Positions 3,401 to 16,891 of a stretch of DNA of 22,873 nt are shown piece after piece (within the stretch, counting starts at the first letter, position 1; each line of letters begins with the position of its first letter). A program made the position numbers and the translations under genes. The stretch is from the IMG/VR virus record IMGVR_UViG_3300046011_006925, positions 1 to 22,873 of that record. The stretch is one strand, 5' to 3'. Under the pieces are notes generated by a model. It saw only the letters and a program-made list of their open reading frames with translations, was not told where the DNA came from and did no database searches. Source of the stretch: a virus.

Positions 3401-4681
3401 TTACTTGGTAGCGGTGAGGGGACGTTTCCAAGCGTCAGTCACCTTGCTGCGATAGGCAGCGATGGGGCTGTCGGTGGAGCGGCCGGCACCTTTCAGCGCG
3501 TCACGCAGGGTGGCGGTGCTGTCGGCGCGATCGGAATCGGCGTCCTCTTTGGTTTCGCCGTCGGCATCCTCGGAGTCGTCGTCCTCGGGGTCGCCATCTT
3601 CGTCGCCTTCGGCGTCAGCACGGGCGGCGAGGATGCCTTCAACCACGCCCTGGATGTAGGCGGGTTCGGCGTCGTCGCGGGGTGCGGAGCCGGTGAGGTT
3701 CTCGAAAGCCTGTACGTACAGGGAGGCGTCGTCGATACCGTCGAACTTGAAGTCCTCGGTGAACGCGGGGGCGAGGCGTTGCAGGGTTGCGAGGCGCTCG
3801 GCGACCAGCTGGTCGAGCTCGGCGGTGTCGATGCGGGCGTCGCCGGAGGCAGCGAGCTGCTCCTCGAGTGCATCGGCACGACCTTCAGCGGCCTCTTTGT
3901 CGTAGGCCAGAGCGTCGAAGTCGGCCTGCAGAGTGTCGAGCTTGGTGGCAAGCTCGTCGCGCTCGGTGGTGAGTGCTTGCAGTTGGCGCCCCATGTCCCG
4001 GGAGTAGGACTGGACCGCGCTGGCTGCTTCTGCGGGCAGATCGATCTCCAGGCCGTCGAGTTTGACGGTTGCCATAACGGGAGATGCAGTTGAACTGGAC
4101 TGGGGCGCCATTTCGTGCTCGGGGAAGGCGGCTACAGCATCAGCTGCATCCATTCGATCGAGCAAGAGTCGTACCTCCGGGCCAGCCCGGCCGCGGGGGA
4201 CAATGGCGATGTGGTTCACCCGGATGTTGCGCTGGACGCCGGCGTACTCTTCGCCCTCGGGGGTGATTCCGGGGGTGGGGTCAAAGTCGACCTTGTAGCC
4301 GGCAGATACCTCGGTGGCATCCTTGCGCTTGATCTTCTCGATGGCGTCCTGGTCGGTGACGACGAGGGCAACTTCGACAAAACCGTCGTTGTACCGAACT
4401 TGGCTACCGGAGTAGCCGACTTGGTACTGCTTGGTGTTGGCGGAGTCGAGAAGAACCGGTGGGTGACCCCACGTTGCGGGTTTCATGCCGAACGTGGAGA
4501 GGGAGTCCGGGTTACTGACCTCCTCAGGGGGTCGGTATTCGCGGACTTGGGAGCCATCAGACCGGCGGTAGAGCTGCGTACCCGAGCGGGCGGCGCGACA
4601 CCAAACCCGGAGGTAGCCCTCGGGGGTGGTTTCGCTGCCCGTGATGGGAGCGAAGTCGTACCTGGACACTGATGTTTCCAT
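3401..4681 (-). CDS. Prohead protease (DUF2213-like) fused to scaffold
   Basis: In this 426-residue protein, residues 1-180 match the DUF2213 pattern: WGHPPVLLDS at 71-80, DGFVEVALVVTDQDAIEKI at 99-117, a serine in TEVSAGYKVD (S126), then GVQRNIRVNHIAIVPRGRAG at 148-167 with H157. I expect S126 and H157 to be catalytic candidates, by analogy with herpes/HK97-type assembly proteases. Residues about 220-300 form a heptad-like charged coiled coil. Residues 350-385 are very acidic (DGDPEDDDSEDADGE), followed by a basic C terminus (RSKVTDAWKRPLTATK), a layout typical of scaffolds. It could also process the modular proteins encoded upstream. Confidence 0.87.
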   Translation of the reverse strand: METSVSRYDFAPITGSETTPEGYLRVWCRAARSGTQLYRRSDGSQVREYRPPEEVSNPDSLSTFGMKPATWGHPPVLLDSANTKQYQVGYSGSQVRYNDGFVEVALVVTDQDAIEKIKRKDATEVSAGYKVDFDPTPGITPEGEEYAGVQRNIRVNHIAIVPRGRAGPEVRLLLDRMDAADAVAAFPEHEMAPQSSSTASPVMATVKLDGLEIDLPAEAASAVQSYSRDMGRQLQALTTERDELATKLDTLQADFDALAYDKEAAEGRADALEEQLAASGDARIDTAELDQLVAERLATLQRLAPAFTEDFKFDGIDDASLYVQAFENLTGSAPRDDAEPAYIQGVVEGILAARADAEGDEDGDPEDDDSEDADGETKEDADSDRADSTATLRDALKGAGRSTDSPIAAYRSKVTDAWKRPLTATK

Positions 4682-4959
4682 GCTTAAGAGCTTACCGGTT
4701 CTTGTGCGTTTGCTTAGCTTTATGCACAGAGCGGTTACAGCACTTGGCGATTCATAGGCAGTTGACGTTGTGTCGGCGTATCAGGGCGCTACGGGAATAC
4801 CATAAGTTTACGCAGTTTGAAGTTGCAGAGAGGTTAGGCGTTAGCCAAGCTGCATATTCGCGGTTGGAGAAAGGAGAGATAGAGGTGTCAGTTATGAAGC
4901 TGATAGCTTTGAGCGAGATCTACGATGTTAGGTTGCAGGAATTAGTAAAAGATATCTAG
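4672..4959 (+). CDS. Small XRE-type helix-turn-helix regulator
   Basis: A plus-strand gene in a minus-strand head module. The frame from the ATG at 4672 gives 95 residues, but the recognisable part begins near residue 33: CRRIRALREYHKFTQFEVAE, then RLGVSQAAYSRLEKGEIEVS, a classic XRE/Cro helix-turn-helix. The ATG overlaps the start of the divergent protease gene by 10 bases and has no ribosome binding site. A TTG at 4744, 4762 or 4768 may be the true start, giving about 64-71 residues. The stop (TAG, 4957-4959) overlaps that of the facing gene in a CTAG tetranucleotide. Base composition is lower in GC than the neighbours. The target is unknown. Confidence 0.8.
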   Translation: MFPCLRAYRFLCVCLALCTERLQHLAIHRQLTLCRRIRALREYHKFTQFEVAERLGVSQAAYSRLEKGEIEVSVMKLIALSEIYDVRLQELVKDI

Positions 4960-6221
4960 ACGATCTCGAACCACGCGAGGTCGAGGAATAGCTTGGCGGC
5001 GTTGTTGGTGGGAGTAGCGGCGATCAGTAGTACGTCGCTTACGCCAGCGAGGGTGCGACCGAGCTGGAAATTGAAGTCTGTAATGCTCCCGAGGTCTAGT
5101 GAAGAAGAGCTTGTGAGATAGCCTCCTGCGATCTCGGTACCACCGGTGAAGCTGGTGATTGTGGTGTTGTATTGGACGTTGTTATTGACGTGAGTGGACC
5201 AGGTGCCTCCTGTGATTGTGGGGTTAAGCAAAACATGGTACTGGACAATGTCTAGCTTGTTATTTGTCGTCTGTTCGACAGCCGCGTTTAAGTTGGATGG
5301 AACAACTACACTATCTAAACGGGTGCTGTTTAAGCGCAGCGCCAGTACGGGGTAGATCGTGCCGGCAGTGGCGAGTGTGACTGCGGTGGAGCCGGTGGCG
5401 ATGTTGTAGCGGCGGCTGAAGCCTTCGTATCCGCCCTCGGAGGCGACGGTGTTGCAGATCTGCTTTGCGGTAGCTGAGGTCGCAATAGTTCCTGTGTTCT
5501 CGATCTCCTGGCGTAGGGGGAGGATCGCGGTGGTCATGTAGCTGGTGAGGTTGATGTTGTCGCCGTGGAAGGTGTGAGCGATGACCATGCGGCCGTCTAC
5601 GACGAAACCGCATCGGACATCGCCGACACCGAGCCACTCGATGTCAATCCAGAAGATCTGGGTTTTGGATAGGTCGAGAGTGCGGCCGGAAAGGCCGGTG
5701 CCATCGAATTTGTCGTTGTTCCAGTCGGCCTGGGCTATGCGGGTATTGACGACGCTGCCGGTGACGTAGCTGCGGCGAACGAGGTAGGTAGCAGTGCCAT
5801 CGCTCTCGAGATAGATGCCATTTTGGGTGCCGAAGTAGCCGATGCGTTGGCGCAGGTTGGTTCGAGGCGCGGCGAAAGCGAAGGATGTCATCACCAGCAT
5901 CGATTTACCGGGCTGGTAAGGGAAGACGCGTTTGGTTTCGCGGTAGACGTAAGCGCCAGAGGTTGTTGGGACGGTGAGATTGACGCAGCTTTCGTTGGCG
6001 GCGTATGTCTTGGAGCCGCCACCATTTAATGCTGTGTCCCATTTGTCGTTTTCTTGGTAACGATGTTGGCTGTCAAACAGCGTGAATGGGGAGCTTGTAC
6101 GGAGACGGCCGAAGGCGTCACCACTGGTGCCGGTGTTAGCGAGGACGGGTACGGGATAATCGTCATCGCTGCGTACGTAGACGAGCTCGTAGCGGTCGTT
6201 ATTGACAATGCGTTGGCCCAC
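4956..6221 (-). CDS. Cyanophage-type virion structural protein
   Basis: This 421-residue protein starts with GTG at 6221. It carries segments I recognise from a virion protein widespread in cyanophages: DAFGRLRTSSPFTLFDSQHR, VFPYQPGKSMLVMTSF, ATYLVRRSYVTGSVV, WNNDKFDGTG, QIFWIDIEWLGVGDVRCGFV and MTTAILPLRQEIENTG. The rest is beta-rich with many Asn, Thr and Ser. The family's exact place in the virion is not known to me; a surface or tail-associated structural role is likely. It lies between the modular payload genes and the prohead protease, separated from the latter by the inserted HTH gene. Confidence 0.83.
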   Translation of the reverse strand: MGQRIVNNDRYELVYVRSDDDYPVPVLANTGTSGDAFGRLRTSSPFTLFDSQHRYQENDKWDTALNGGGSKTYAANESCVNLTVPTTSGAYVYRETKRVFPYQPGKSMLVMTSFAFAAPRTNLRQRIGYFGTQNGIYLESDGTATYLVRRSYVTGSVVNTRIAQADWNNDKFDGTGLSGRTLDLSKTQIFWIDIEWLGVGDVRCGFVVDGRMVIAHTFHGDNINLTSYMTTAILPLRQEIENTGTIATSATAKQICNTVASEGGYEGFSRRYNIATGSTAVTLATAGTIYPVLALRLNSTRLDSVVVPSNLNAAVEQTTNNKLDIVQYHVLLNPTITGGTWSTHVNNNVQYNTTITSFTGGTEIAGGYLTSSSSLDLGSITDFNFQLGRTLAGVSDVLLIAATPTNNAAKLFLDLAWFEIV

Positions 6222-6256: not shown

Positions 6257-7768
6257 CTACAGCGGAGTACCGAAGGGCTGCTTGCGCATGCGGGCAGGGC
6301 GGGCCACACGTTTTGGCTTTAGGGCTAGTCGTAGCCGTGGGGTTTTGACACCGAGAGCCTTTGCTACATCACTCATTTGAATGAGTCCACGCTCCATGGC
6401 TGCTCGCGGCGCAGTGTTGGCGTTGGCAGTCAGGATGCGGCGTGTGAGTCCAGGAATGCGCGGTTGATCGGCCCCGCTTACGAAGCGTGAGCGGGGCATC
6501 CGGTCGGCAGCCAAGAGTTCGCGCTCGAGAGCGTCGTGGTAACGCTTGACTGCGATCTCGAAGCGCTCGGTGTTGGCAGCGCCTCCGTAAGTCGATAGTG
6601 CCTTTGCCTGCTTCTCAACGTTAGCTAGTACACCTTTGTATTTATTAGTAAAATCAGCACCGCGTGAATTAAACCCTAAAAAGTCGGGAAGCCTATTCAT
6701 ATCATACATCAAGTTCATTACACCATTGCGGTAATGCGCTGGTTGCCGTGGATCATGCAGCTCTGTAGCATAACCAAAGTCTATCAATGCTACTTTTTTA
6801 CTTTTAGCATTAACCATAAGATTTCCGTTATGAATGTCTCCATGTGCTAAGCCTGCTGTGTGTAACTTGCGAAACTCACGTGCGATTTTTGTTTTAACAA
6901 TTAAGGGTGCGTTTGAGGCGTTACCATTAGAGTCACGGTATTCTTTACCTAAAGTCTTGTAGCCACTCATATGAGTCAAAATAAGAGTCTGCGACCTTAC
7001 CTGGCCATCCGCGTCGCTGATTGCTTGCATACGAAGCGGAGCGGGGACGTTGACACCGGCATAGTCGGCCAGGTCTAGGCGGCGGAACTCGCTAGCAACG
7101 TCGTCCTCGTCGCCATTGCGGAAGAGCTTGATGCCGTACTTCTCAGAAGGATGGACAAAGTAAGTGCCGAAAGCTCCTGCGCCTGCTTGGCAGCGGGGTT
7201 GATTGACGTAGCCTCCTGCCGATGCAAGACCCTGGCTGCCGGTAGACACCAAGGCGCGGGCGTGCATAGCCCCGGTGGAAAGGCCGTACCAATCGGTGTC
7301 GGCGTCAAACTTCCCCGGGGCTTGGATCTTTCCCAGACCACCGCCACATTCAGCAGCGCGGCGACGCTGGTTGATCTGCTCCTGGACGTCCCACTCTTGG
7401 CCCTCCGCGATGGCTTCGTCGACGATGCGTTGAGCTTCGTCCTCGGTGAGTTTGGGGTGTTTTAGTTTGTTGACAGGGTCGTTATCCCAGGCCTCCTTGG
7501 TCCTGTACTTACTGGCGATGGCAGCACCTCCTGCTACTACACCTGCGACAAGCGCGACTTTAGCAGCAGTCTTAAGCGTTTCTGCGGTTATACCGCCTGC
7601 TTGTTTTGTGCACTTATGCGTGCGAGGAATATGCGACTCGCCGCAGGGCTTTCCCTTGCCGCCCTTAAGGGCGTCGATTCGCGCTAGGCCGAGGACTTTC
7701 CCGGCGTGAGAGCTCCATCGCGGCGGCTGGTCTTGCCGGAGCAGCGCCACTTTGCCCGCGACAAGCAC
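6257..7768 (-). CDS. Modular protein with protein-kinase-fold domain; probably made by -1 frameshift
   Basis: The open frame runs from a GTG at 7768 (503 residues). No start near the beginning has a ribosome binding site and the first 28 residues overlap the upstream gene. Expression as a -1 frameshift extension of that gene, entering at 7696, is more likely. Numbering from 7768, the CG box CGESHIPRTHKC is at 42-53 and a small-residue hydrophobic segment at about 64-86. The kinase fold follows: Lys214 in YGIKLF (beta-3), Glu227 in the alpha-C region, HGDIHNGN at 309-316 and IDFG at 329-332. HGDxxxxN resembles RIO, Kdo and aminoglycoside kinases more than classical Ser/Thr kinases. All catalytic residues appear present. 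The C terminus is basic (RPARMRKQPFGTPL). The substrate is unknown. Confidence 0.85.
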   Translation of the reverse strand: MLVAGKVALLRQDQPPRWSSHAGKVLGLARIDALKGGKGKPCGESHIPRTHKCTKQAGGITAETLKTAAKVALVAGVVAGGAAIASKYRTKEAWDNDPVNKLKHPKLTEDEAQRIVDEAIAEGQEWDVQEQINQRRRAAECGGGLGKIQAPGKFDADTDWYGLSTGAMHARALVSTGSQGLASAGGYVNQPRCQAGAGAFGTYFVHPSEKYGIKLFRNGDEDDVASEFRRLDLADYAGVNVPAPLRMQAISDADGQVRSQTLILTHMSGYKTLGKEYRDSNGNASNAPLIVKTKIAREFRKLHTAGLAHGDIHNGNLMVNAKSKKVALIDFGYATELHDPRQPAHYRNGVMNLMYDMNRLPDFLGFNSRGADFTNKYKGVLANVEKQAKALSTYGGAANTERFEIAVKRYHDALERELLAADRMPRSRFVSGADQPRIPGLTRRILTANANTAPRAAMERGLIQMSDVAKALGVKTPRLRLALKPKRVARPARMRKQPFGTPL

Positions 7769-8400
7769 AGCGGGGTGTTGCGTTCAGCGCCGGCGCAGTT
7801 GTAGCCCTCGGATTTCATGTCGCCGAAGCTGCGGGCGCAGTAGCGGTCGCCTTTGTCGGTGCCCGGGGCGATGGTGTAGCCCTTGGCTCCGTAGCGGATG
7901 CGGTTCTTGCGGCCCGTTTCGGGGTTGGTCACCACCTTGGTGTACTTCTTGCCGTCCTCGGTGTCGAAACCGGCGGCCCAGACGTCGGTTTTGGAGCTCA
8001 CCATGACAGGGGCGCCGGTGCGCTCTTTGCATGGGTCTTCGCGGCGCTTGCGCGCGACGAGCCGGCGGCGCTCCGCAGGAGAAAGGGCCAGAGCTTTGGC
8101 GGAAGGTAGGCACTTTGGCTTACCTTCGCCCTCGGTGCGGTCACCGCAAGGGCCGAGGATGCGGCCGCTGCTGTTCATGCGGACCCACTTTTCTTTGAAC
8201 CACTTGTCGAGGGCGTCATTACGGAAGGTTCCGCCGCGCTTTTTGTATTCGCGGACCATCCAAGCGTTGGCATATGCGCTCGGGTAGATCTTGAACTTGC
8301 GCTTGGCCTCTGCTTTTACTGCGGCGTGCAGCTTTTTGTCAGCAAAAATGACCCCGCGGGCGTCGGCGCGGATGCGCAGCGTTGCGGGGGTGAGGTTCAT
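7684..8400 (-). CDS. DUF5872-like modular protein (zero-frame product)
   Basis: This 238-residue protein begins MNLTPATLRIRADARGVIFA. Residues about 21-125 (KIYPSAYANAWMVREYKKRG, KWFKEKWVRM, CGDRTEGEGKPKCLPSAKAL, LSPAERRRLVARKRREDP) resemble DUF5872, known from large algal viruses and some phages. A TDVWAAGFD at 138-146 matches the tail motif of its neighbours. A second Cys-containing segment follows (GAKGYTIAPGTDKGDRYCAR, NTPLCLSRAKWRC). The last residues are SRRDGALTPGKSSA. The GGGAAAG heptamer sits in frame just before the stop, so a fraction of ribosomes may read on into the kinase domain. The start overlaps the previous stop as ATGA. Confidence 0.82.
   Translation of the reverse strand: MNLTPATLRIRADARGVIFADKKLHAAVKAEAKRKFKIYPSAYANAWMVREYKKRGGTFRNDALDKWFKEKWVRMNSSGRILGPCGDRTEGEGKPKCLPSAKALALSPAERRRLVARKRREDPCKERTGAPVMVSSKTDVWAAGFDTEDGKKYTKVVTNPETGRKNRIRYGAKGYTIAPGTDKGDRYCARSFGDMKSEGYNCAGAERNTPLCLSRAKWRCSGKTSRRDGALTPGKSSA
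7696..7702 (-). promoter_or_regulatory. Candidate -1 ribosomal frameshift site GGGAAAG
   Basis: On the coding strand the zero-frame codons are ccG GGA AAG tcc tcg gcc tag, so G GGA AAG fits the X XXY YYZ rule. It is the heptamer used in phage lambda tail gene G-GT frameshifting. A GGAG lies 10 bases upstream (7713-7716), the spacing of the stimulatory Shine-Dalgarno in dnaX. A perfect palindrome GCCCTTAAGGGC (7661-7672) lies 23 bases downstream. A -1 slip enters the kinase frame at GTC 7696-7694, four codons before the zero-frame stop. This is a sequence-based prediction. Confidence 0.7.
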
Positions 8401-8906
8401 GGCTCGAAACCGGCGGCCCAGATGGAGTCAGAGCGCTTCATCTTGGCAGCGCCCTTGCGGGTGGTCTTGCTGCCCTTCTTGTAGCCCATCTTGTTGAGGG
8501 TGCCGTAGATGTAAGCGGCGGCGCGTTCACCTTTAAGGCCGCGAGCGGCGGCTTGCTTGGCGAGCTCGGCTTCCATGGCGGCGACTTTGGTGCCGCGGGG
8601 GTCCATGCGGGACTCAGTGGTACCGGCATCCCGGCGTTTCCCCCGCATATCCTCGAGTGCTAGCTCGAGTTCATTGCGAGCTAACGCGTCACGAGCCGGG
8701 AACAGACCCATAGCACTCAGTTTTTGTTTCTCTTCTGAGGTTAAGCGCAGGTTGCGGCTACTACCCGCCTTTCCCCACTTGCGTGCGCTAGGACGTGAGG
8801 TTGGTTCAACTTTAGTTGCTGGACCTTTAGTGCACTTTTCGCCCTCGGAGATAGCTCCTTTACCACATTTGAGGTCGAGGCGGAGGGAGGCGTGGGTCAG
8901 GGTCAT
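8397..8906 (-). CDS. Modular tag protein E, payload unknown
   Basis: This 169-residue protein begins MTLTHASLRLDLKCGKGAIS. The CG box CGKGAISEGEKC is at 14-25. There is no clear hydrophobic segment, unlike its neighbours. The body is helical and charged (LTSEEKQKLSAMGLFPARDA). A second conserved-looking helix, LAKQAAARGLKGERAAAYIY plus GTLNKMG, lies at about 115-141. The C terminus KRSDSIWAAGFEP (157-169) is the shared tail. Start and stop lie within a few bases of neighbouring genes, implying one operon. No function is recognised for the payload. Confidence 0.85.
   Translation of the reverse strand: MTLTHASLRLDLKCGKGAISEGEKCTKGPATKVEPTSRPSARKWGKAGSSRNLRLTSEEKQKLSAMGLFPARDALARNELELALEDMRGKRRDAGTTESRMDPRGTKVAAMEAELAKQAAARGLKGERAAAYIYGTLNKMGYKKGSKTTRKGAAKMKRSDSIWAAGFEP
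8830..8852 (-). repeat. 23-bp direct repeat, copy 1 of 3 (CG box)
   Basis: Bases identical to those at 10147-10169 and 10555-10577. They encode the ISEGEKC part of the CG box in three neighbouring genes. Identity at wobble positions suggests recent duplication or recombination. Confidence 0.85.
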
Positions 8907-8909
8907 GGC

Positions 8910-9401
8910 TCAGATAGCAAGTTGATCGAGCTCGGGGGAGAAACCGTCGGCGTACACAGAGTCGCGCCGCTTGGATGCGGCGTTTCGGCCTCGGGTGACA
9001 AACCCTTTGATGTCGGTGCCGTAGCCCTTAGCCAGGGTGCTGAGGTTGCGGCCCATGCCTTCACCAGTTGCTGCGACGTTAGCGGCGTTTTTTGCTGCTC
9101 CAGACCAGTTGCCTCGAGCAACGTTGCCCACGCCAAAGCCAGCCTGCAATGCGGGCTCAACTACTGCGCGGGCGGCTGCCCTCATCCCGGAACGGGGATG
9201 CAGAAAAGCAGTTCCTACGATGGCGGCGCCAGTCAAAGCCGCAGCTCCAGCCGCGAGCTTGACGGGCTTGTTCCAAGAGGCGCGACACTGGTGATCACGG
9301 GGAATGCAAGCATTGCCACAGGCCTTAGAAGTTGAACCGCAGTTGAGCTTTTTGTTGCCTACGAAAACATCGGTGCGAAGAGTGGTGGGGGTCAAGGTCA
9401 T
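8910..9401 (-). CDS. Modular tag protein D, Gly/Ala-rich membrane-type payload
   Basis: This 163-residue protein begins MTLTPTTLRTDVFVGNKKLN. The CG box appears as CGNACIPRDHQC at 28-39, with an additional Cys at 21. A hydrophobic small-residue segment LAAGAAALTGAAIVGTAFL lies at 49-67. The rest is a low-complexity Gly/Ala/Asn/Arg sequence with no recognised domain. The C terminus SKRRDSVYADGFSPELDQLA carries the tail motif at 147-154. It may be a unit whose payload is only the membrane-active segment. It is packed 3 bp from both neighbours in the modular operon. Confidence 0.82.
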   Translation of the reverse strand: MTLTPTTLRTDVFVGNKKLNCGSTSKACGNACIPRDHQCRASWNKPVKLAAGAAALTGAAIVGTAFLHPRSGMRAAARAVVEPALQAGFGVGNVARGNWSGAAKNAANVAATGEGMGRNLSTLAKGYGTDIKGFVTRGRNAASKRRDSVYADGFSPELDQLAI

Positions 9402-9404
9402 GGC

Positions 9405-10223
9405 TTACAACGCGATGGTGTCCCAGTCGATGTCGAAACCGTCGGCGTAAATCGAATCGAGCTTGCCGCGGCGCCGCAGGATCTCTTGGTAGGCGGCGTT
9501 GATCTTCTGGGCTTTGCGAACGTCACCACCAACGTCAGGGTGGTTTTCTCGCATCAGCTGTAGCCACTTCTTTTTGATCTCTGCTTCGGATGCATTTTCA
9601 GAAATGCCGAGATCTTTGAAAGGATCTTTTACTGCTTTGTTAGTTCCGACGTTGCGACTTCCTGAGGATGCGTTTTGCTTGGCTCTATCACGCGCGGAGT
9701 TCCACTGGCGCTTGTAGTCCTCGGCGCCCATAGCCCATTCACGCTCGGCGGCAGCCAAGTTGGTACGCAAAGAACGACCTGCCGTGATGCTGCCACCACC
9801 TAAATACATGAGTGCGCTGCCAGCAGCAAGGCTTCCGGCCTGGCGCTTATTGGGTTTTTTGGCGTACTCGTTGGCGAGTAGCCCGGCTCCGGCAATGCCT
9901 AAGCCAACACCTGCAATCTCGGCTCCGAGAGCCATACCGCGAGCCTTCTTGAAGGCCGCTTTACCTTGAGCAATACTTTCATCAGGAGTGGCCTTCGCTC
10001 CCAGAGGTGTCGAAAGGATGCGTTGGCTCGCGCGAGCTTTTGCAGCACCAAATGCAACGCCACCTAGAACAGCAGCGCCTCCCACTCCGAGAGCAACGTT
10101 GCGGATGGTGTTGTTGTTGGTTTTAGCAGGCGTAGCGGGGCCCTTGGTGCACTTTTCGCCCTCGGAGATCGAGCCGCGGCCGCACTTGAGGTCAGAGCGG
10201 ATGCTGGATGGGGTGAGCACCAT
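9405..10223 (-). CDS. Modular tag protein C with C-terminal DnaJ (J) domain
   Basis: This 272-residue protein begins MVLTPSSIRSDLKCGRGSIS. The CG box CGRGSISEGEKC is at 14-25. Two or three hydrophobic Gly/Ala segments follow (about 42-60, 97-117, 131-147). A J domain occupies about 198-252: DPFKDLGISENASEAEIKKK, helix II WLQLMRENHPD with the invariant HPD at 228-230, and helix III AQKINAAYQEILRRRG. The tail LDSIYADGF follows at 255-263. J domains stimulate the ATPase of Hsp70 (DnaK), so the protein probably recruits host DnaK, at the membrane if the hydrophobic segments insert. Full J-domain proteins usually have this domain at the N terminus; here it is C-terminal. Confidence 0.88.
   Translation of the reverse strand: MVLTPSSIRSDLKCGRGSISEGEKCTKGPATPAKTNNNTIRNVALGVGGAAVLGGVAFGAAKARASQRILSTPLGAKATPDESIAQGKAAFKKARGMALGAEIAGVGLGIAGAGLLANEYAKKPNKRQAGSLAAGSALMYLGGGSITAGRSLRTNLAAAEREWAMGAEDYKRQWNSARDRAKQNASSGSRNVGTNKAVKDPFKDLGISENASEAEIKKKWLQLMRENHPDVGGDVRKAQKINAAYQEILRRRGKLDSIYADGFDIDWDTIAL
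10147..10169 (-). repeat. 23-bp direct repeat, copy 2 of 3 (CG box)
   Basis: Identical to 8830-8852 and 10555-10577. It lies in the CG box codons of the J-domain gene. Confidence 0.85.
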
Positions 10224-10226
10224 GGT

Positions 10227-10994
10227 TCAGATGTCGAAGGAGCCGGAGTCAGCGGAGAAGCCATCTGCCCAAGCGTCACGGACAGAGGGGCGCTTGGTTT
10301 TTTTCCATGCAGCTTCTCTGGCTTTCATAACAGCAGCCAACTGAGTCTTCTTTGAAGGTGCTGGAGCTCCTGCTTTTGCGCGTGCTGCAGGATCCAGTGC
10401 GCGGCGCAGGTCAGTGTTGCGCTTAGCTGTTTGCTGCATGTAAGCAGCACCCCCAATCAGAGCCGCTGCGCCTGCAATCTTTGCGGCGGTCTTGAGACCG
10501 CGAACTTTGGAGCCACCGCGCTGCTGCGGCTGTACTCGCTGAGCTGGCCCCTTGGTGCACTTTTCGCCCTCGGAGATGCTGCCTTTGCCACACTTCAGGT
10601 CGAGGCGCTCAGCGGTGTCGAGGCGGGCTCGGATGTAGGTAGGGCTGCGGTCTTGGATGCCGAGCTCGCAGGCGTCGAGGTACTCGAGGGGTGTCAGTGA
10701 GTCGCCGCGCTTGCGCATGGAGCCGCAGTTGCCATCGCACTTGGCGCCCTTCTTGCCCTTACAGCCGCACTCGGCATCCATGGGCTTTTTGCCGTAGCCG
10801 TCGGCAGCGGGCTTGGTGTGTTTGGCGCCCTTAGCGCTGCGCTTACGGCTGTGGCTGGCGGCCATGTCCATTTCCTCCTCCTCTTCTTCCTCTTCGGGGG
10901 ACTCCATGTTGCGGGCGCGAGCTGCCATGGCGCGGCCTTCGCGGATGCCTTCTTCGTAGGCCTCGGATTTAGCGCGGCGTGTGGTGGCGGGCAT
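10227..10994 (-). CDS. Modular tag protein B, Cys-rich with acidic segment
   Basis: This 255-residue protein begins MPATTRRAKSEAYEEGIREG. A run of eight Glu lies at 34-41. A Cys-rich stretch follows (CGCKGKKGAKCDGNC, 76-90) that could bind metal. At 97-104 the junction GDSLTPLE starts a leader, followed by the CG box CGKGSISEGEKC at 135-146 and a hydrophobic segment GLKTAAKIAGAAALIGGAAY at 166-185. The C terminus SVRDAWADGFSADSGSFDI has the tail motif. The N-terminal 95 residues look like a separate domain fused in front of a standard unit. It is the first gene of the series after the inserted plus-strand gene. Function unknown. Confidence 0.82.
   Translation of the reverse strand: MPATTRRAKSEAYEEGIREGRAMAARARNMESPEEEEEEEEMDMAASHSRKRSAKGAKHTKPAADGYGKKPMDAECGCKGKKGAKCDGNCGSMRKRGDSLTPLEYLDACELGIQDRSPTYIRARLDTAERLDLKCGKGSISEGEKCTKGPAQRVQPQQRGGSKVRGLKTAAKIAGAAALIGGAAYMQQTAKRNTDLRRALDPAARAKAGAPAPSKKTQLAAVMKAREAAWKKTKRPSVRDAWADGFSADSGSFDI
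10555..10577 (-). repeat. 23-bp direct repeat, copy 3 of 3 (CG box)
   Basis: Identical to 8830-8852 and 10147-10169. It lies in the CG box codons of the Cys-rich modular gene. Confidence 0.85.
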
Positions 10995-11082
10995 GGCGTA
11001 GAGCCCCGAGTATTGCTTCCCACAGCGTAGCTGCCTTGTGCTATAGGGCTCGATAGGCTGAGAGCATCTATCTGTTCTAGTT

Positions 11083-11322
11083 GTGAACTTGCTTCGCTTA
11101 GTTGCTGGGAGTGGTGCGGCCTCGGGATTGCTGATTGGTCAGCTCGTTTTTGCTGCTTTCTTTGTCGGATCTTGTGAGATACCAAATGTGCTCAACAGGG
11201 GTAGCGCTAATGCCTGTCTTGATCGTTGGATGACTACAGCTGCTCTGTTCTTTCCTTCAGGTGTAGCAAGTGCTGGTACAGCAGTTGCGCTGGATAAAGC
11301 AAAAAGGCGCTTTCTTGGCTGA
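11083..11322 (+). CDS. Small membrane protein or lipoprotein on the plus strand
   Basis: A GTG at 11083 gives 79 residues. A hydrophobic N-terminal segment (LLIGQLVFAAFFVGSC) ends at a Cys in a lipobox-like VGSC. A second hydrophobic stretch (MTTAALFFPSGVASAGTAVA) and a basic C terminus (DKAKRRFLG) follow. The stop TGA directly abuts the stop of the MuF gene on the other strand (TGATCA), as expected for real convergent genes. The minus strand here has no competing gene. It could be a holin-, spanin- or superinfection-exclusion-type protein. No family is recognised and the start is uncertain. Confidence 0.6.
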   Translation: MNLLRLVAGSGAASGLLIGQLVFAAFFVGSCEIPNVLNRGSANACLDRWMTTAALFFPSGVASAGTAVALDKAKRRFLG

Positions 11323-12186
11323 TCAGTCGAAGGGCTGAGGCGCGAACTGCTCGAAGACTGCAGCTTTGTTGAGGTCGGCCGGGCCGACGGTGGCTACGCG
11401 GGATACTTCTTCGCGGTGAGTGCGGGGAAGCGCGGCGTACTCGGGGTCGATCGCGGCGATCTCGGGGTCCCAGGGGGCTAGGTAGCAACGGCAGCGGGGG
11501 TGTGCGGGTGCGTTTGTACTAGCGCGCTTGTAGATGCGGCCGGCCCGGGCGTTGCAGATGGGGCAAGTGCGGTCATCGCTGGTGGCGTACCACATGACGA
11601 GGTCGATGCCGTTGGCTGCGTAGTACTGGTTGCTGGCAGCGTTGTATGCGCGTAGCGACTCGGTGCGGGCGATGACGTCAGCGCGAGACTTCACCACGCC
11701 GAGGCGCAGACGCAGGTCGTTGGTGATGGCGTCGGTAGGGCGGCCTTCAGCGATGCCTTGGGCGACGAGATCGGTGGCCGTGGTTGCGAAGGCTTCGCCA
11801 TGGCGGCGGAGGTAGCCGCGGGCTTGGGCTGCAGCAGCCACGGTGGCTTCGATCGGAATGGAGACGTTGATCAGGCGGCGCTGGGAGCCGGAGTCGCGGA
11901 GAAGCTCTCGGGCGACGGTGACGCCTTTGCCTTCGGAGCTGCGGAGTAGGGAGCGCAGCACGCGGTCATAGGCGTCGGTTCGGTCGGGGCGGAAAGCGGG
12001 AACGAGCTGACGGAACTCCTGCAGTAGGGCGACGTTGCGGTCGGCTGCGGGGGCTCCGCTGCGGAGCTGGATGCGGGTGCGCCGCAGTAGGCGGTTGAAG
12101 CTGCTGTCGAGGATGCGGTTGAGCTGGGCGATGGTGACGTCCTCGGAGCGACGCAGGGCGGCGTTGTAGCGCTCAAGGAGTTGCAT
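11323..12186 (-). CDS. MuF-type phage head morphogenesis protein
   Basis: In this 287-residue protein, the C-terminal half carries the Phage_Mu_F signature: ARTESLRAYNAASNQYYAAN at 173-192, then the zinc-binding-like TSDDRTCPICNARAGRIY (C208, C211) and HPRCRCYLAPW (H229, C232, C234). MuF/SPP1 gp7-like proteins associate with portal, enter the head in few copies and can leave with the DNA. MuF proteins often carry C-terminal toxins; this one ends about 50 residues after the domain with no extra domain. Its start overlaps the 890-residue gene by 14 bp. Confidence 0.9.
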   Translation of the reverse strand: MQLLERYNAALRRSEDVTIAQLNRILDSSFNRLLRRTRIQLRSGAPAADRNVALLQEFRQLVPAFRPDRTDAYDRVLRSLLRSSEGKGVTVARELLRDSGSQRRLINVSIPIEATVAAAAQARGYLRRHGEAFATTATDLVAQGIAEGRPTDAITNDLRLRLGVVKSRADVIARTESLRAYNAASNQYYAANGIDLVMWYATSDDRTCPICNARAGRIYKRASTNAPAHPRCRCYLAPWDPEIAAIDPEYAALPRTHREEVSRVATVGPADLNKAAVFEQFAPQPFD

Positions 12187-14845
12187 CAGCCCTGTCGTTG
12201 CGGATGAGGTCGGCGATCTGCTCCACCTGCGAATCCTGCATGCGCATGAATTTGCCTCCGCGCTTCATTGCGAATAGCCGTTCGTCAGAGGACAGTGCTG
12301 GGCGGAACCCGTATTTTTCGTAGACAGAACGGCGTTTTGCACCTTTGGTGTCATTAGAGTAGGGAATAGCATAGATAATTGAGTTGTCGGGTAGTTGGTC
12401 TACCTGCTCCTGGAACATCTTTTTGACGGTGGAGGCTACACCACGGGCGTTGCGGGACGCTGCTTCTGACTTTGCGTCAAATTCTCCATCTACTCGGAAC
12501 TGAGTTGAGTAAGTGCGCGCACCTCCGATGCTTTCCTGCGGTTTTGTTGAGTAAATAAGAAGTGTTTCCCCGACGGAGCCTGTGCTGAGCAAGCTACCGT
12601 CTTTCATTTTCCAGTTGGTGAAGTTATCTTTTGTGTTTACTGAAGTGATTTCACCTCCTTTGGACTTCAGAGCCATGTAAGCAGCACTTGCTTTAGCGTC
12701 TCCAACCAGCCCACGCACCGACTTTTGGAACTGTTTAGGTATGCGGTTTATGCCAGCGTCTATTTCCGCGCTCGACAACGATTTAATCACCCGCTTGCTG
12801 ATCGCGGGTACCACTACCTCTTTGTTTTTGTATGCAATCGCTCCACCGGCAGCCAAAGCAGCACCAGCACCGATAGCAGCCGCGATAGCAACACGGTTGC
12901 GCGTTTTATTATCGCTCTCGGGGGGTTGTTTTTCTTGGCTGGCTACTCCTGCGCCCTTACGGCACTCATGTGCCTTTGGGATGTGTGAGGCTCCGCAAGG
13001 CTTACCCTGCAGGTCCTGCCGGACAGCCAGATAAGTAGTGGCACGGATCAGACCAGGGGGCAACGCGTCACCCCTCTGGCGGCGGGCTATTTCAGCGCGG
13101 GCGGCACGGTAGGAGGCCTCGAGGCTCATATCTTCGCCGCGGCCTTTAGCAGCCTCGCGCAGGGAGCGGGCAAGGTCGGTGATCTGCGCTTGGGCGCTGC
13201 GGCGGCCGCGGGGTGGGGTGGTAGCTGCAGGAGCTGCGCCTGTCGCAGCGCGACCCGCTGTCTGTACCGGAACCAGGCGCTCAAAGCCGTTCTGCTGCAA
13301 GTAGCGGGTGGCGTCGCTCAGGCTGGTGATGTCGCGACCAGCGAGCTCGGAGGCGGCAACCCGGGTTTCGCGATCCGAGAGTGTGAACGTGCTGCTCTTG
13401 CTGACCTGGCGGGCGAAGTACTCCTTGGAGATGGCGTCGCTGAGGCCCTGGCCGATGCGTCCGGTGACGTTCGCGGGCTTTGCCAGGCGCTGTGCTAGGT
13501 AGCGGGAGTGGCCGATGCGGGCGCTGTTCATCAGGTCGCCGTAGCCAGCGCGGCGCTGCTCCGTGGGCATAGCGGCGCCCGGGGTTTGGCGCACTTCGTC
13601 GGCGATGCGGCCGAAGTACTGATCGAACCCGTCACGGGTCTCTCGGTACAGGCGATTGGCGAGCTCGGTGCGGCTGACAGCAGCTTCGCGGCCACGAGGG
13701 GCGGCGCCAAGGATCTGGTTGAGGTTGCCGACGGCGCGCTCGCGGACGTTCTCGGGGAAGTTGTCCGTACTGGGTCCGACCAGGCGATTCAAGAAAGTGC
13801 TGCGCTGCGTGGCGTCGTTGAGGTTGACGCCTTGTTGACGGGCCAGGGCTTGCAGGCTGGCTGCTTCGCGGTTCAGTGCGCTAGTGAGTTGCCGACGTAC
13901 GTCAGTGTCGGAAGCGCCGGAGCCCAGGCGGAAGCCGAACTGCCGCGAGAGGAACTCATGGGTAGCGGGCTCGGAGAAGGTGCTGCCATCTCCGGCGCCT
14001 GCGGCGTTGGTGCGCTTGGTGCCCCAGAAGGCCTCGAGGCTCTGTTGGCGCCAGGTTTCGGCGTTGGTGCCACGGCCAGCGGCATCGACGTCGACAGAGC
14101 TGATGCGATTCAGCAGGATGCGGCTGTTGGCGTAGTCGGTGGCGCGACGCTCGAGCTCGGTGGGTGTGCGGAGAAGCGATTCGCGGAGGGCAGCCGGGCC
14201 TGTAGCGGCTTCGCCGGCGGCGCGGGCTACGGCGGCGCTGGCAGCGGCGGCACCAGCAGCGCGGCGTTCGCGGCGAGCTCCAGCGATACCTGGGGTGGCG
14301 TCAAGGATGCGGCCAATGCCGGCGGCTACGGCGTCATCGATCTGGCGGCCAACGCCGTCCCGGTAGAAGGGTGCCCGCTTGAGCTGACTGTGGCTGAAGA
14401 GGCCGAAGCCGACGATGCTGAGGCCGAGGGCAATGCCGCCGGCCCGGCGCTCGAGTTGGGCCTGGAGCGCCTGCTTGCGCTGGAGGTCGCCCGGGATGGC
14501 CTTAACGATGCCCCGGACGATGGAGCGTTTACCGCCCTCGATCTCGGAGAAGCTGCCCTTGCGCACGCCTTTACCGAGGCGTTTGACGCCACGCTCGATG
14601 TTGGCCAGGCCACTGACGGGGTCGGTGCGTACGGCGCGGAGGTGAGGGTCAACACCTTCACCTTTGAGCCGGCAGTCCCAGTTAGGCGGGATGCAGCGGC
14701 CACCGCACTTGACGTTGGGTGGGTTGCAGTCAACGGCGCGGGCAGTCTTACCGGTGCGGCTGCGGGCGGGGGCGTCGAGGCGTGCCTTGGTGGCTAGGTA
14801 AGCCGCGGTGCGGAAGCCTTCGGGAGTGGTGTTGCGCGGCGTCAT
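12173..14845 (-). CDS. Large two-unit modular protein with C-terminal GNAT-like domain
   Basis: This 890-residue protein lies between portal and MuF. A first CG box CGGRCIPPNWDC is at 47-58 and a hydrophobic segment at about 136-152. A long helical, Arg/Ala-rich middle (180-590) follows with no recognised domain. At 591-600 the junction RGDALPPGLI starts a second unit: CG box CGASHIPKAHEC at 617-628, hydrophobic segment VAIAAAIGAGAALAAGGAIA at 652-671, then a domain at about 755-865 resembling GNAT acyltransferases (ARGVASTVKKMFQEQ, PDNSIIYAIPYSND, SVYEKYGFRP). The second unit is visibly poorer in GC. The N-terminal part may be an ejection or internal head protein, with a delivered enzyme fused behind it. 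The acyl substrate is unknown. Confidence 0.82.
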   Translation of the reverse strand: MTPRNTTPEGFRTAAYLATKARLDAPARSRTGKTARAVDCNPPNVKCGGRCIPPNWDCRLKGEGVDPHLRAVRTDPVSGLANIERGVKRLGKGVRKGSFSEIEGGKRSIVRGIVKAIPGDLQRKQALQAQLERRAGGIALGLSIVGFGLFSHSQLKRAPFYRDGVGRQIDDAVAAGIGRILDATPGIAGARRERRAAGAAAASAAVARAAGEAATGPAALRESLLRTPTELERRATDYANSRILLNRISSVDVDAAGRGTNAETWRQQSLEAFWGTKRTNAAGAGDGSTFSEPATHEFLSRQFGFRLGSGASDTDVRRQLTSALNREAASLQALARQQGVNLNDATQRSTFLNRLVGPSTDNFPENVRERAVGNLNQILGAAPRGREAAVSRTELANRLYRETRDGFDQYFGRIADEVRQTPGAAMPTEQRRAGYGDLMNSARIGHSRYLAQRLAKPANVTGRIGQGLSDAISKEYFARQVSKSSTFTLSDRETRVAASELAGRDITSLSDATRYLQQNGFERLVPVQTAGRAATGAAPAATTPPRGRRSAQAQITDLARSLREAAKGRGEDMSLEASYRAARAEIARRQRGDALPPGLIRATTYLAVRQDLQGKPCGASHIPKAHECRKGAGVASQEKQPPESDNKTRNRVAIAAAIGAGAALAAGGAIAYKNKEVVVPAISKRVIKSLSSAEIDAGINRIPKQFQKSVRGLVGDAKASAAYMALKSKGGEITSVNTKDNFTNWKMKDGSLLSTGSVGETLLIYSTKPQESIGGARTYSTQFRVDGEFDAKSEAASRNARGVASTVKKMFQEQVDQLPDNSIIYAIPYSNDTKGAKRRSVYEKYGFRPALSSDERLFAMKRGGKFMRMQDSQVEQIADLIRNDRADATP

Positions 14846-14847
14846 CG

Positions 14848-16674
14848 TCAGTAGCCCTCGTTGTAGGCGCGGAAGGCGTCAGCCTCGGCGTCGGGCACTG
14901 GAGATAGCCCTGCCACATTCTGACCGGGGAAGAAGTGCTGAACGGCGACTTTGGCGGCGCGGAGTGAGTTGAAGCCTGTGGTGTAGGGGCCGTCCGTGAT
15001 AGCGCTGTCGAGGGCGAAGCGAGCTCGGTAGAGCTTGCGCGCTCGGGTGCGGTGTGGGCCGAGGATCAGCACAGGGGCGGCAGCGCTGCTGTCGATCCGC
15101 TGCCCGTCGGGGCCGACGAGTGGGCCGGCGACGACATCGCCGTGGCGGTGGGTGATGGCGATGCGAAGGCCGTCGGCGTCGTCGAACAGGAAGTCGCCGC
15201 GACCACCTTCGGCAGGGGGCAGGACAGCGCCACCTTCAGCGGCAGGCTCCTCCTCGCCCTCGGGGAGTGCCGGAGGCTGCGTGGCGGCCTGCAGTTGGGC
15301 GTCGTAGCCCGCCATCTGCGACTGGAATTGAGCGTCGGTGCTGGCGATGAGCTGCTCGGTGACAGCTTCGTTGAGTTTTGTATCAATCGAGTAATCGGTG
15401 CCGCCAAAGCGGGACTCGCGCACTTCCAGCGGGTTCAGGACGCCGAGCTGGATGTACTGCGCGTCTGAAGTTGCCTTGAGCTGGTGGAGCTCGGCCTTTT
15501 CCTTTTCGGTCTGGGTGAAGACAGAGGGGAAAAGGACGGACCAGGATTCGGGAATGCGGCCGCGGGTTGGACCTTCGCGCGAGGCGAGGATGTAGGTGAA
15601 GACCTCGGTGATTGGGGTGCGGCAGTAGACCTCCTGCCACTGCTCAACGAGAGAGGCCCAGACACGCTCTTCGTATCGGCCTTCTTTACCGAGGCCTCCG
15701 GGGCTATCACCCATGAGGATGGAGGCGGGCCATCCGGTAGCTGCCTGCAGATCCTTGATGAAGGGGTCAGTGGCGGTGGCGATGTTGCTCAGTGCTCGGT
15801 TGATGAAGCTGATCTCTTCTTCGACGTCAACGACCATGCCGCCGTAGACACTACGGCTGAGGTTGTTGGCTTCGAGACGCTTGCGGAGATCGGACTCATT
15901 GCCTGCGGCGATGCGGTTGAACAGGCCTGGGATCTTGTGAACGAAGACGTCTGAATCGGAGGTCATCGACTCGAGGCCGGACATCGCGGTCTCGTAGCGC
16001 TTGAAGGCGTTCCAGACGAGCTGGAGGACGGACTGGCCCCAGCCGGTGTTGCGAGAGCGGAGATTCCAGGGCAGGTAGAGGCCGTCGAAGCGCGCTACGC
16101 GGGTGTGGTGGACGCGGATGTTGACGTAGCCGCTGGTCTGATCAGGGGTAATGCGCTGCGACGTGGTGATCCGGTAGTGCGAAGGACGGGAGTAGTCCGT
16201 GATGGAGAAGTCCTCGGGGATCAGTTCGTGTCGCGAAAGCGGGATGTATCCGCGGACAGCGCGGATGCGGCTCATCTCGACAGGCTCATCGGGCTGGCCG
16301 CCGTCGTCGATGAGCAGCACAAGGCCGGCGCCGCCGTAGAGGCGCTGAAGCTTGATGACTTCGGCGAGGGCGAAGTGGAACTGGGTGGCCTGAAGGAACT
16401 GGTTGAACCGAGTGAGAAGGTCGGCGTTGTCTGCAGCGGCGTCACCGCCTAGGGCGATGCTCGGTTGGTGGCGCAGGATCTCGTCAGCAATGCAGTCGAC
16501 GTAGCGACGAGGGATGCCGTTGGTATATAGGGATTCGAGTTCGGCTTCGGTCAGCAGAGTCTGAAAGCTGACACTTGTAGCGGTTGTTTTATCTTTTGCG
16601 GGTACACCTAGGCCCGTTAGCGCATTAACTAATGCACCATCATTCCGGTATTTGTCTGAGGATGCAGTGGTCAT
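14848..16674 (-). CDS. Portal protein, DUF1073-like
   Basis: This 608-residue protein begins at an ATG at 16674. The portal core shows IPRRYVDCIADEIL, QRLYGGAGLVLLIDDGGQP, VHHTRVARFDGLYLPW, GWGQSVLQLVWNAFKRYETA, a VDVEEEISFINRAL segment and GWPASILMGDSPGGLGKEGR, all typical of DUF1073 portals. An upstream extension of the frame to 16944 crosses the repeat array and is not credible. After a Pro/Glu-rich linker (ALPEGEEEPAAEGGAV) there is an extra C-terminal domain of about 110 residues whose role is not recognised. It forms the dodecameric channel at the head vertex and the terminase docking site. Confidence 0.9.
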   Translation of the reverse strand: MTTASSDKYRNDGALVNALTGLGVPAKDKTTATSVSFQTLLTEAELESLYTNGIPRRYVDCIADEILRHQPSIALGGDAAADNADLLTRFNQFLQATQFHFALAEVIKLQRLYGGAGLVLLIDDGGQPDEPVEMSRIRAVRGYIPLSRHELIPEDFSITDYSRPSHYRITTSQRITPDQTSGYVNIRVHHTRVARFDGLYLPWNLRSRNTGWGQSVLQLVWNAFKRYETAMSGLESMTSDSDVFVHKIPGLFNRIAAGNESDLRKRLEANNLSRSVYGGMVVDVEEEISFINRALSNIATATDPFIKDLQAATGWPASILMGDSPGGLGKEGRYEERVWASLVEQWQEVYCRTPITEVFTYILASREGPTRGRIPESWSVLFPSVFTQTEKEKAELHQLKATSDAQYIQLGVLNPLEVRESRFGGTDYSIDTKLNEAVTEQLIASTDAQFQSQMAGYDAQLQAATQPPALPEGEEEPAAEGGAVLPPAEGGRGDFLFDDADGLRIAITHRHGDVVAGPLVGPDGQRIDSSAAAPVLILGPHRTRARKLYRARFALDSAITDGPYTTGFNSLRAAKVAVQHFFPGQNVAGLSPVPDAEADAFRAYNEGY

Positions 16675-16728
16675 AGCACAAACAGGCTCGGGGAGAGCTG
16701 TGCTCAGAGTAGCGGTATGCAGCAAAAG

Positions 16729-16755
16729 ATCATAGATATCGGTTACCAGATGCAA
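16729..16755 (-). promoter_or_regulatory. Candidate promoter for portal and downstream head genes
   Basis: On the minus strand, TTGCAT (16755-16750) and TATGAT (16734-16729) are separated by 15 bases that contain a GGTAAC box. The spacer is short for a sigma-70 promoter and the -35 is imperfect, so this is tentative. A protein bound to the box would sit between the two elements, as a repressor does. The portal ATG is 55 bp downstream. Confidence 0.4.
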
Positions 16756-16833
16756 GTGAATATGGTAACTGATATCTGTATCTGGTAACGTGATTCTGCA
16801 TCTGGTAACCGATATTGGTATCTGGTAACGTAC
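16735..16833. repeat. GGTAAC operator-like array, 20-bp periodic
   Basis: GGTAAC occurs at 16764, 16784, 16804 and 16824, exactly 20 bp apart, and once inverted (GTTACC) at 16742. The wider unit is about KCATCTGGTAACCGATAT. The inverted copy (16735-16754) and the copy at 16797-16815 match over 19 bases. Copies at 16784 and 16824 share GTATCTGGTAACGT. The 13-base arms 16735-16747 and 16764-16776 form an inverted repeat with one mismatch. Two-helical-turn spacing places the boxes on nearly the same DNA face, which suggests cooperative protein binding between divergent genes. Confidence 0.85.
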
Positions 16834-16891
16834 CTGTGCAGGAGTTGACAGCCGGATGGTTGGGTAGGCTGGTGCAGCCACCTCCCAGGGC

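Follow-up and report, generated by a model that had tools for sequence, protein, structure and literature searches.

Cys box genes of the window

The 22.9-kb IMG/VR virus record IMGVR_UViG_3300046011_006925, called the window below where the whole stretch of analysed DNA (22,873 nucleotides) is meant, carries six minus-strand genes whose products share a short cysteine motif, the Cys box, joined to different downstream domains or payloads. All six lie between the genes for the portal and the DUF2213 head protease. An earlier note on this DNA had listed seven C-G-x3-I-x5-C boxes in the six genes; all seven are present with the spelling and spacing claimed, and residue shuffling of the six frames yielded a mean of 0.059 boxes and never more than two in 2000 rounds. 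Here we report the distribution of the box among related viruses and isolated phages, the R-x-D motif that precedes it and the exchange of its payloads, and we discuss the box proteins as putative cargo of the phage head.

The portal protein (14848–16944; PF06381, 2.2e-55), encoded on the minus strand like all genes and boxes described in this section, forms the upstream border of the block. Gene A (12173–14845) specifies 890 amino acids (aa) in which a helical module with box 1 is followed by box 2, a hydrophobic segment and a putative GNAT-like domain; it ends in a leftover leader, LIRNDRADATP, and Pfam, PHROG and NCBIfam gave no match for it at the limits used. Box A1 (CGGRCIPPNWDC, 14672–14707) has the four-Cys form with an upstream Cys (CNPPNVKCGGRCIPPNWDC), and the AlphaFold model places a short hairpin at residues 45–52 with low confidence. 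At box A2 (CGASHIPKAHEC, 12962–12997) the DNA homology of two relatives, L009 and L043, stops 8–49 nucleotides (nt) past the box. Gene B (11323–12186) encodes a boxless MuF head protein (PF04233, 2e-16). Gene C (10227–10994), whose payload was assigned to no family, contains box C (CGKGSISEGEKC, 10557–10592), the strongest homology-block boundary among the relatives with 42 block ends.

Gene D (9405–10223) combines box D (CGRGSISEGEKC, 10149–10184) with a J-domain payload (DnaJ, PF00226, 4.6e-8), and gene E (8910–9401) combines box E (CGNACIPRDHQC, 9285–9320), again a four-Cys form with an upstream Cys (NCGSTSKACGNACIPRDHQC), with an Ala/Gly-rich hydrophobic segment. Box F (CGKGAISEGEKC, 8832–8867) lies in gene F (8397–8906). 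The products of genes D, E and F finish in a C-terminal tag, D-[SATV]-x-[YWF]-A-x-G-[FW], that the earlier note did not mention (LDSIYADGF, RDSVYADGF and SDSIWAAGF, respectively); gene C carries a shorter variant (RDAWADGF), and genes A and H are without it. Gene H (6257–7768) couples box H (CGESHIPRTHKC, 7610–7645) to an APH/RIO-type kinase payload. Between F and H, gene G (7684–8400) encodes a DUF5872 protein (PF19197, 1.5e-11) without a strict box; it contains a CG...KCLP element of its own and, internally, the string SKTDVWAAGF, which resembles the C-terminal tag. Among the relatives the DUF5872 domain sits after a true box, for example in L041 at 10371–11657 (PF19197, 2e-10). Further downstream follow the DUF2213 head maturation protease-scaffold protein (3401–4681), a significant match to both PF09979 (5e-42) and phrog_530 (3.6e-86), and the major capsid protein (1832–2749; PF09950, 3.1e-55), which begins with MTTDIRNDSVGLF. 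Among the matches listed, the portal of the window comes closest to two isolates, Synechococcus phage S-CBS4 (38% identity) and Aphanizomenon phage CL131 (27%), and judging from these matches a cyanobacterial host is likely.

Distribution of the box among related viruses

Relatives were collected by scanning viral contigs with the 890-aa gene A, and the best 80 of 110 were used as loci. With the window they make up 81 related records, some of them near-identical (L011 equals the window at 100% over 11.5 kb), that contain 344 boxes in 239 open reading frames (ORFs); 201 distinct 36-residue leader-box strings are found among the 344 boxes. Every one of the 344 lies on the portal strand. The boxes are all downstream of the portal gene in 75 of 75 portal-holding records, and wherever portal and protease are both present (35 of 35 records, window included) all 175 boxes fall between the two, which bears out the earlier proposal of one adaptor with swapped payloads tied to head genes. 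When 12 records of 32–72 kb were searched over their whole length with a box profile, each had a single box block of at most 10 kb.

Both outer Cys residues and the Gly are kept in every complete copy of the box, and the Ile is nearly constant. Profile searching of the loci returned four confident off-pattern matches, one with Val and two with Gln in place of Ile and one cut at the locus end; since the profile weights Cys, boxes devoid of Cys could escape it.

Two scans of genome contigs for cellular or prophage relatives, one with the adaptor alignment (49 pattern matches) and one with an alignment of boxes from Planktothrix phage PaV-LD (13), gave no confirmed match, so that at the sensitivity of those patterns the box did not turn up as a general motif unlinked to phage heads. 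Searching 50,697 phage records by tblastn with genes E and A and the adaptor N-terminus gave zero matches, and no Pfam, PHROG or NCBIfam model matched the box region of the window at the limits used. Literature searches confined to open papers turned up, among the results listed, neither the box nor an R-x-D motif for head proteases. The assertion that the box always lies near portal or MuF genes is too strong: it fails in the isolate CL131, where the boxes, about 26 kb away from the portal gene, are flanked by the capsid/connector genes on one side and the tape measure gene on the other.

Payloads and their exchange

The sequences behind the boxes form 40 payload clusters, a number that takes in the adaptor module and truncated single members; 34 clusters have complete members. 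Pfam scanning of 20 of the 40 cluster representatives and of the window genes identified APH/RIO-type kinases in three clusters (one just below the cut-offs), LRAT (2.2e-6), ADP-ribosyltransferase (PF03496, 3.4e-6), DnaJ and DUF5872, gene D of the window representing a second DnaJ cluster. For the ADP-ribosyltransferase payload there is, in addition, a match to PHROG 832 (2.1e-5), which bears the name RNA polymerase ADP-ribosylase. The remaining scanned representatives had no accepted Pfam match; the metallopeptidase payload of cluster 15 has sub-threshold Pfam matches and owes its name to the letters HELGH. The AlphaFold model of gene A is mostly helical, and the 50 PDB matches listed for it cover mainly residues 679–868 and are nearly all acetyltransferases. 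As the best of them (Z 7.9, 121 aligned residues, root-mean-square deviation 3.1) stays below the safe level of Z, a GNAT-like fold of the C-terminal domain is a lead. Some relatives have a gene A that joins the GNAT-like unit and a kinase-cluster unit; most window genes hold one recognisable domain or none.

The payloads differ although, among the matches listed, most head proteins of the relatives share about 75–98% identity with their window counterparts. The clearest replacement is seen against L001, where 96.7% DNA identity runs through the leader and box H, stops 5 nt past the box and resumes 1 nt after the stop codon; the kinase of gene H is replaced there by an ADP-ribosyltransferase, and the swap is bounded by box and stop codon. 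In another relative, L047 (about 5454–5458), the kinase gene H is absent and the homology jumps from just before box H to the H stop codon. For the homology blocks of the 80 loci, a box end is close to 52 of the 238 right-hand ends, where 19.5 would be expected and 2000 random draws never exceeded 37; a gene stop is close to 97 of the 186 left-hand ends (expectation 30.8), 64 of which lie at the end of gene A. Stretches of about 60–66 nt around boxes C, D and F are 83–88% identical between non-corresponding boxes of the window and L011, possibly enough to act as a recombination seam.

Leader, hydrophobic segment and C-terminal tag

The earlier note had described an LTP...R leader in front of the box. 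It occurs literally in genes D and E and as LTH in gene F; what stays constant is R-x-D, which precedes 342 of 344 boxes by no more than 40 aa, whereas a single shuffling of the residues ahead of the box leaves it at 95 of 344. Each of the 105 inner boxes in multi-box proteins has an R-x-D of its own. The invariant columns in an alignment of 36 gene A sequences include R22/D24 and R609/D611, ahead of both boxes.

The small-residue hydrophobic segment said to follow the box is common without being universal. Defined by a Kyte-Doolittle 19-residue mean of at least 1.6 within 110 aa, this Ala/Gly-rich segment characterises 16 of 34 payload clusters, where half or more of the complete members have it, and appears in 1.7% of control segments, the controls including non-coding ORFs. 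Of the 239 box ORFs, 93 have the C-terminal tag in their last 30 aa; 212 of the 239 are intact at the 3′ end, and all 93 belong to these. Boxless ORFs gave five matches, one of them in an ORF with a degenerate box. Over 97 tag matches in box proteins the residue two before the Asp is Arg in 59 and Lys in 19. At three loci (L043 11987–13459, L052 13582–15549 and L032 8045–8500) a stretch resembling the tag or R-x-D runs straight into the leader and box of a following unit, which looks as though adjacent genes had been joined or split.

Box proteins of isolated phages

CL131 carries boxes in gp044, gp045 (with Leu replacing Ile), gp047 and gp048, the last with five. gp048 matches lipase/esterase models in several places, and gp047, which has no Pfam match, shows by eye a similar GHSAG-type stretch. 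The boxes of PaV-LD are in ORF061, 065, 078, 079, 080, 081 and 085, with ADP-ribosyltransferase payloads in ORF079 (by Pfam) and ORF085 (by eye and through a shared PHROG) and, by eye, HExxH payloads in ORF080 and ORF081. Most boxes of the two phages are of a four-Cys form, C-x5-9-C-G-x2-C-I-x5-C, with the same R-x-D. Another 43 viral loci, several from the same contigs, hold 117 four-Cys boxes, all on the + strand of the loci and 108 with R-x-D upstream; they correspond to 39 distinct strings, 35 with R-x-D. Profile searches over the whole records of seven further cyanophage isolates (S-CBS4, 2AV2, kac65v151, PSS2, S-SKS1, Mic1 and PA-SR01) detected no box.

The deposited record of PaV-LD calls ORF081 a virion structural protein and ORF085 a minor virion protein. 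The PaV-LD genome paper is said to have identified thirteen virion proteins by gel and mass spectrometry. Thirteen structural proteins of this phage are mentioned, with reference to earlier work, in part of the text of PMC10286775, and for CL131 23 virion proteins were reported from liquid chromatography-tandem mass spectrometry (PMC6293099, in part). Box proteins of PaV-LD match both PHROG 16619, called minor head protein, and PHROG 33618, of unknown function. PHROG 16619 spans 1440 columns; the MuF protein of the window matches columns 198–272 and the PaV-LD box proteins match from about column 593, and as both match one PHROG, MuF and box may be joined in some phage. The part of CL131 gp044 (L083, 9277–9957) behind the box is related, at 29–32% identity, to sequences of three further phage records, a Dorea phage and two of human faecal origin, the matches beginning after the box.

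R-x-D as a candidate head protease site

R-x-D recurs in scaffold and capsid proteins as well as in the putative cargo. The DUF2213 protease-scaffold proteins of the window, CL131 and PaV-LD are divergent, and when residue pairs at gaps of 0–4 that were seen at least four times in the three were ranked, R-x-D came out as the top pair (29 seen, 9.6 expected, z 6.8), with the pair D-S also high. The longer motif [KR]-x-D-[SA] occurs 7, 6 and 9 times in the three proteins, respectively, compared with about one in shuffled sequence, and none of 300 shuffles reached the count; the expectation for the seven sites of the window protease is 1.07. This protease also carries RYD at its residues 7–9, of which R7 and D9 are invariant in 17 of 17 aligned protease sequences, the window included. 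Capsid N-termini read EIRND (typically) in the window and its kin, EFRMD in S-CBS4, EIRMD in CL131 and TTRLD in PaV-LD, and the R-x-D is kept in 14 of 14 homologues listed. PDB searching with the major capsid protein found relatives and nothing on N-terminal processing, and with the protease no meaningful match.

Because R-x-D had been noticed in the kin of the window before it was counted and the scaffolds had been used to rank it, tests that leave the protease out are the fairer ones. With the protease excluded, R-x-D-[SA] occurs in seven of nine portal, capsid and box ORFs of PaV-LD versus 2 of 98 others (p 5e-8; 2.27 versus 0.14 per 1000 residues), and in five of six such ORFs of CL131 versus 8 of 101 others (p 7e-5; 2.41 versus 0.34 per 1000 residues). 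Counted by annotated genes with the protease included, the figures are 8 of 10 versus 4 of 123 for PaV-LD and 6 of 7 versus 6 of 137 for CL131, covering 133 of 142 PaV-LD features and 144 of 149 CL131 genes after exclusion of short, cut or locus-spanning ones. The shorter R-x-D and seven altered patterns separate head and box ORFs from the others less well than R-x-D-[SA]. From these sequence patterns R-x-D is probably a cleavage site of the head protease.

A putative cargo-loading module and its alternatives

That leader and box constitute a real modular tag is virtually certain. The best reading of this tag is the earlier note's tagged virion cargo, to which the deposited virion-protein names of PaV-LD box proteins lend indirect support: with moderate confidence, and by analogy, we regard it as a cargo-loading module of the head that is trimmed by the protease at R-x-D, comparable to the T4 internal proteins and Alt with different signals. 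A cargo unit would consist, in order, of the R-x-D leader, the Cys box, often a small-residue hydrophobic segment and a variable enzyme or effector domain, and many units end in a C-terminal tag of the form [KR]-x-D-S-[IV]-[YW]-A-x-G-F. Leader and tag would bring the units into the assembling prohead via interaction with scaffold or protease, and the head protease would then cut after R-x-D in the scaffold, the capsid N-terminus and the cargo leader. The leader cuts would split polyprotein forms into units, and the C-terminal tag would probably be cut as well. Packaging of the box proteins in virions is very likely; that the mature proteins, having stayed in the head, are ejected with the DNA and act on the host is fairly likely. 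For the box itself we offer the tentative guess that it is a compact Cys-closed loop near the new N-terminus, perhaps for docking or for stabilising the fold, ahead of a membrane-type segment. Payloads would be exchanged between phages by recombination at the conserved leader and box DNA, and their predicted types (ADP-ribosyltransferase, kinase, LRAT, lipase-like) are what one would expect of enzymes that modify the host early on.

Several observations weigh against this proposal. Directly behind the box-nearest R-x-D (n = 342) stand 146 Leu, 124 Ala, 34 Phe, 15 Val and 11 Ser residues, and with Leu commonest and Ser rare the cargo leaders obey the S/A rule of the scaffold only in part. In 18 of the 34 clusters the hydrophobic segment does not reach the threshold, the C-terminal tag is absent from 119 of the 212 uncut box ORFs, and 42 of the 52 homology breaks at box ends fall at one box, C. 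Five of 14 altered-pattern tests still gave p < 0.05 (K-x-D-[SA], D-x-R-[SA] and R-x2-D-[SA] in PaV-LD; D-x-R-[SA] and [SA]-D-x-R in CL131), probably because head and box ORFs are long. Two of the seven PaV-LD box proteins, ORF080 and ORF081, have no R-x-D-[SA]; ORF081 has RED-K, and ORF080 begins five residues ahead of its first Cys. The AlphaFold model of the protease domain, with a predicted local distance difference test (pLDDT) score of 53.7, is too poor to confirm a protease fold. S-CBS4, the nearest isolate by portal, is without a box. Finally, the main text of the CL131 paper names none of ORF044, 045, 047 and 048 (PMC6293099; the protein list is in its Table S5).

Four rival explanations were weighed. 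R-x-D could be a scaffold-binding or core-targeting motif by which cargo is bound, loaded and left uncut; scaffold repeats of a short motif fit binding as well as cutting, and the preponderance of Leu after the R-x-D of cargo leaders is unlike the enriched D-S of the scaffold. We nevertheless rate such a role as rather unlikely, for R-x-D at the N-termini of capsid and protease and at both ends of many cargos matches the known pattern of prohead protease substrates, and a separate R-x-D at each inner box of the multi-box proteins is what cutting into units predicts. It is unlikely, too, that the box proteins are ordinary minor head or neck proteins in which the Cys loop is a staple, closed by a disulphide or a metal, and the payloads are decorations kept in the virion. 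The PHROG name minor head protein and the position of the block among head genes would suit this idea, but payload identity differs between phages with nearly identical heads, and the enzyme types (kinase, ADP-ribosyltransferase, LRAT, lipase-like) are typical of host-directed effectors.

The earlier note had also considered CHHC or CCHC zinc knuckles. Knuckles of this kind would bind nucleic acid and so keep the cargo on packaged DNA. In some boxes positions 4 and 9 are indeed His or Cys, and those of the isolates are mostly four-Cys; the common class CG[KRN]G[SA]ISEGEKC, however, lacks inner Cys or His and offers two potential ligands only, and the spacing of the box differs from the C-x2-C-x4-H-x4-C of a CCHC knuckle. 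Four metal ligands at fixed spacing are thus absent from part of the copies, the sole constant residues being the two outer Cys and the Gly, with the Ile nearly so, and the missing inner ligands rule out a zinc knuckle as the common function of the box. Metal binding may be limited to the four-ligand forms, and nucleic-acid-binding knuckles are an improbable explanation overall. Least probable of all is that leader and box are mainly a recombination seam, DNA conserved for cassette exchange with no targeting role. The identity between non-corresponding boxes and the frequent end of homology blocks just past the box would be in keeping with such a seam; conservation at the protein level, however, extends across lineages with different DNA and box spellings (the kin of the window, CL131 and PaV-LD) and reaches R-x-D and, in the kin of the window, the C-terminal tag.

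Comparison with known systems

The T4 protease gp21 cuts after L/I-X-E, fragments its own scaffold and carries its own motif near its N-terminus; the propeptides of T4 internal proteins are 10–19 residues long, and Alt is cut at both ends (PMC9026906, in part). Alt is also a known packaged ADP-ribosyltransferase (PMC5512222, in part). The box system resembles this one in that a short shared N-terminal leader, like the propeptide of IPI, IPII, IPIII and Alt, stands on unrelated, exchangeable proteins (342 of 344 boxes, 40 payload clusters), in the short acidic P3-x-P1 motif, in an ADP-ribosyltransferase payload that may be compared with the doubly cut Alt, and in a protease with its own motif near the N-terminus (LIE-9 in T4, RYD-9 here). 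It differs in that the enriched pair is R-x-D and not L/I-X-E, in the Cys box behind the motif, the multi-box cargos, the hydrophobic segment and the DUF2213 protease. One protease likewise trims portal, capsid and ejected proteins at a short motif in the giant phages phiKZ and SPN3US, and SPN3US gp245 prefers Ser after the cut (PMC10052503, in part). Those motifs end in Glu, unlike R-x-D, and no Cys tag common to their cargo came up, although no search aimed at one was made.

Polyvalent and MuF-fused effectors (Iyer et al. 2017, PMC5512222, in part), which are predicted to be packaged and injected, place ADP-ribosyltransferase and other effector domains beside portal, MuF and terminase genes, much as in the viruses with the box. 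In the latter the shared element is the Cys box with R-x-D, and the MuF gene of the window is separate and boxless: among ten window proteins scanned, PF04233 was found only in gene B. A word search of the main text of that paper found no 'cysteine', 'DnaJ' or 'cyanophage'. PHROG 16619 and 33618 hold the four-Cys box together with the ADP-ribosyltransferase or peptidase payloads of PaV-LD; the window box proteins match neither at E up to 0.1, and none of the PHROG, Pfam and NCBIfam entries that were found is a description of the box as such. The box system works like the T4 internal proteins and Alt and its payloads resemble polyvalent and MuF effectors, but it departs from the former in its motif and from the latter in the absence of MuF fusions.

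A short Cys tag with a likely protease cut site on many unrelated head-region enzymes suggests a previously unrecognised route for loading host-takeover proteins into the virion. The chances appear evenly balanced that several cyanophage-type lineages share one cargo code, in which R-x-D and the Cys loop mark proteins or units to be loaded into the head, trimmed by the DUF2213 protease and delivered to the host. Phages using such a code would carry an exchangeable arsenal of pre-made host-modifying enzymes, many with a membrane-type segment of their own; that kinases, ADP-ribosyltransferases, LRAT-type and lipase-like hydrolases and peptidases are its members is a proposition for which we see about equal grounds either way. 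If true, a sequence rule (R-x-D, then Cys box) would find injected effectors among phage genes now read as hypothetical, DUF2213 head proteases would have a predicted cleavage specificity, a natural tag might be used to load chosen proteins into phage heads, and phage delivery to cyanobacteria in the first minutes would become testable in the isolates CL131 and PaV-LD.

Neighbouring genes

The window also encodes a terminase and a cement protein matching the E217 gp24/Pam3 gp6 family. Between the box block and the protease gene lies a boxless, conserved virion structural protein (4956–6221, minus strand; phrog_1645, 1.6e-116). A small regulator, helix–turn–helix-like by eye (4672–4959, plus strand), lies immediately upstream of the DUF2213 protease gene in divergent orientation, and a small regulator or hypothetical gene occupies the same divergent position in CL131 (gp037/gp038), PaV-LD (ORF070L/071R, hypothetical) and S-CBS4 (gp021/gp022). 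An HNH endonuclease ORF (16892–17221, plus strand; PF14279, 3e-10) overlaps the 5′ end of the portal ORF and lies between the portal and terminase genes.

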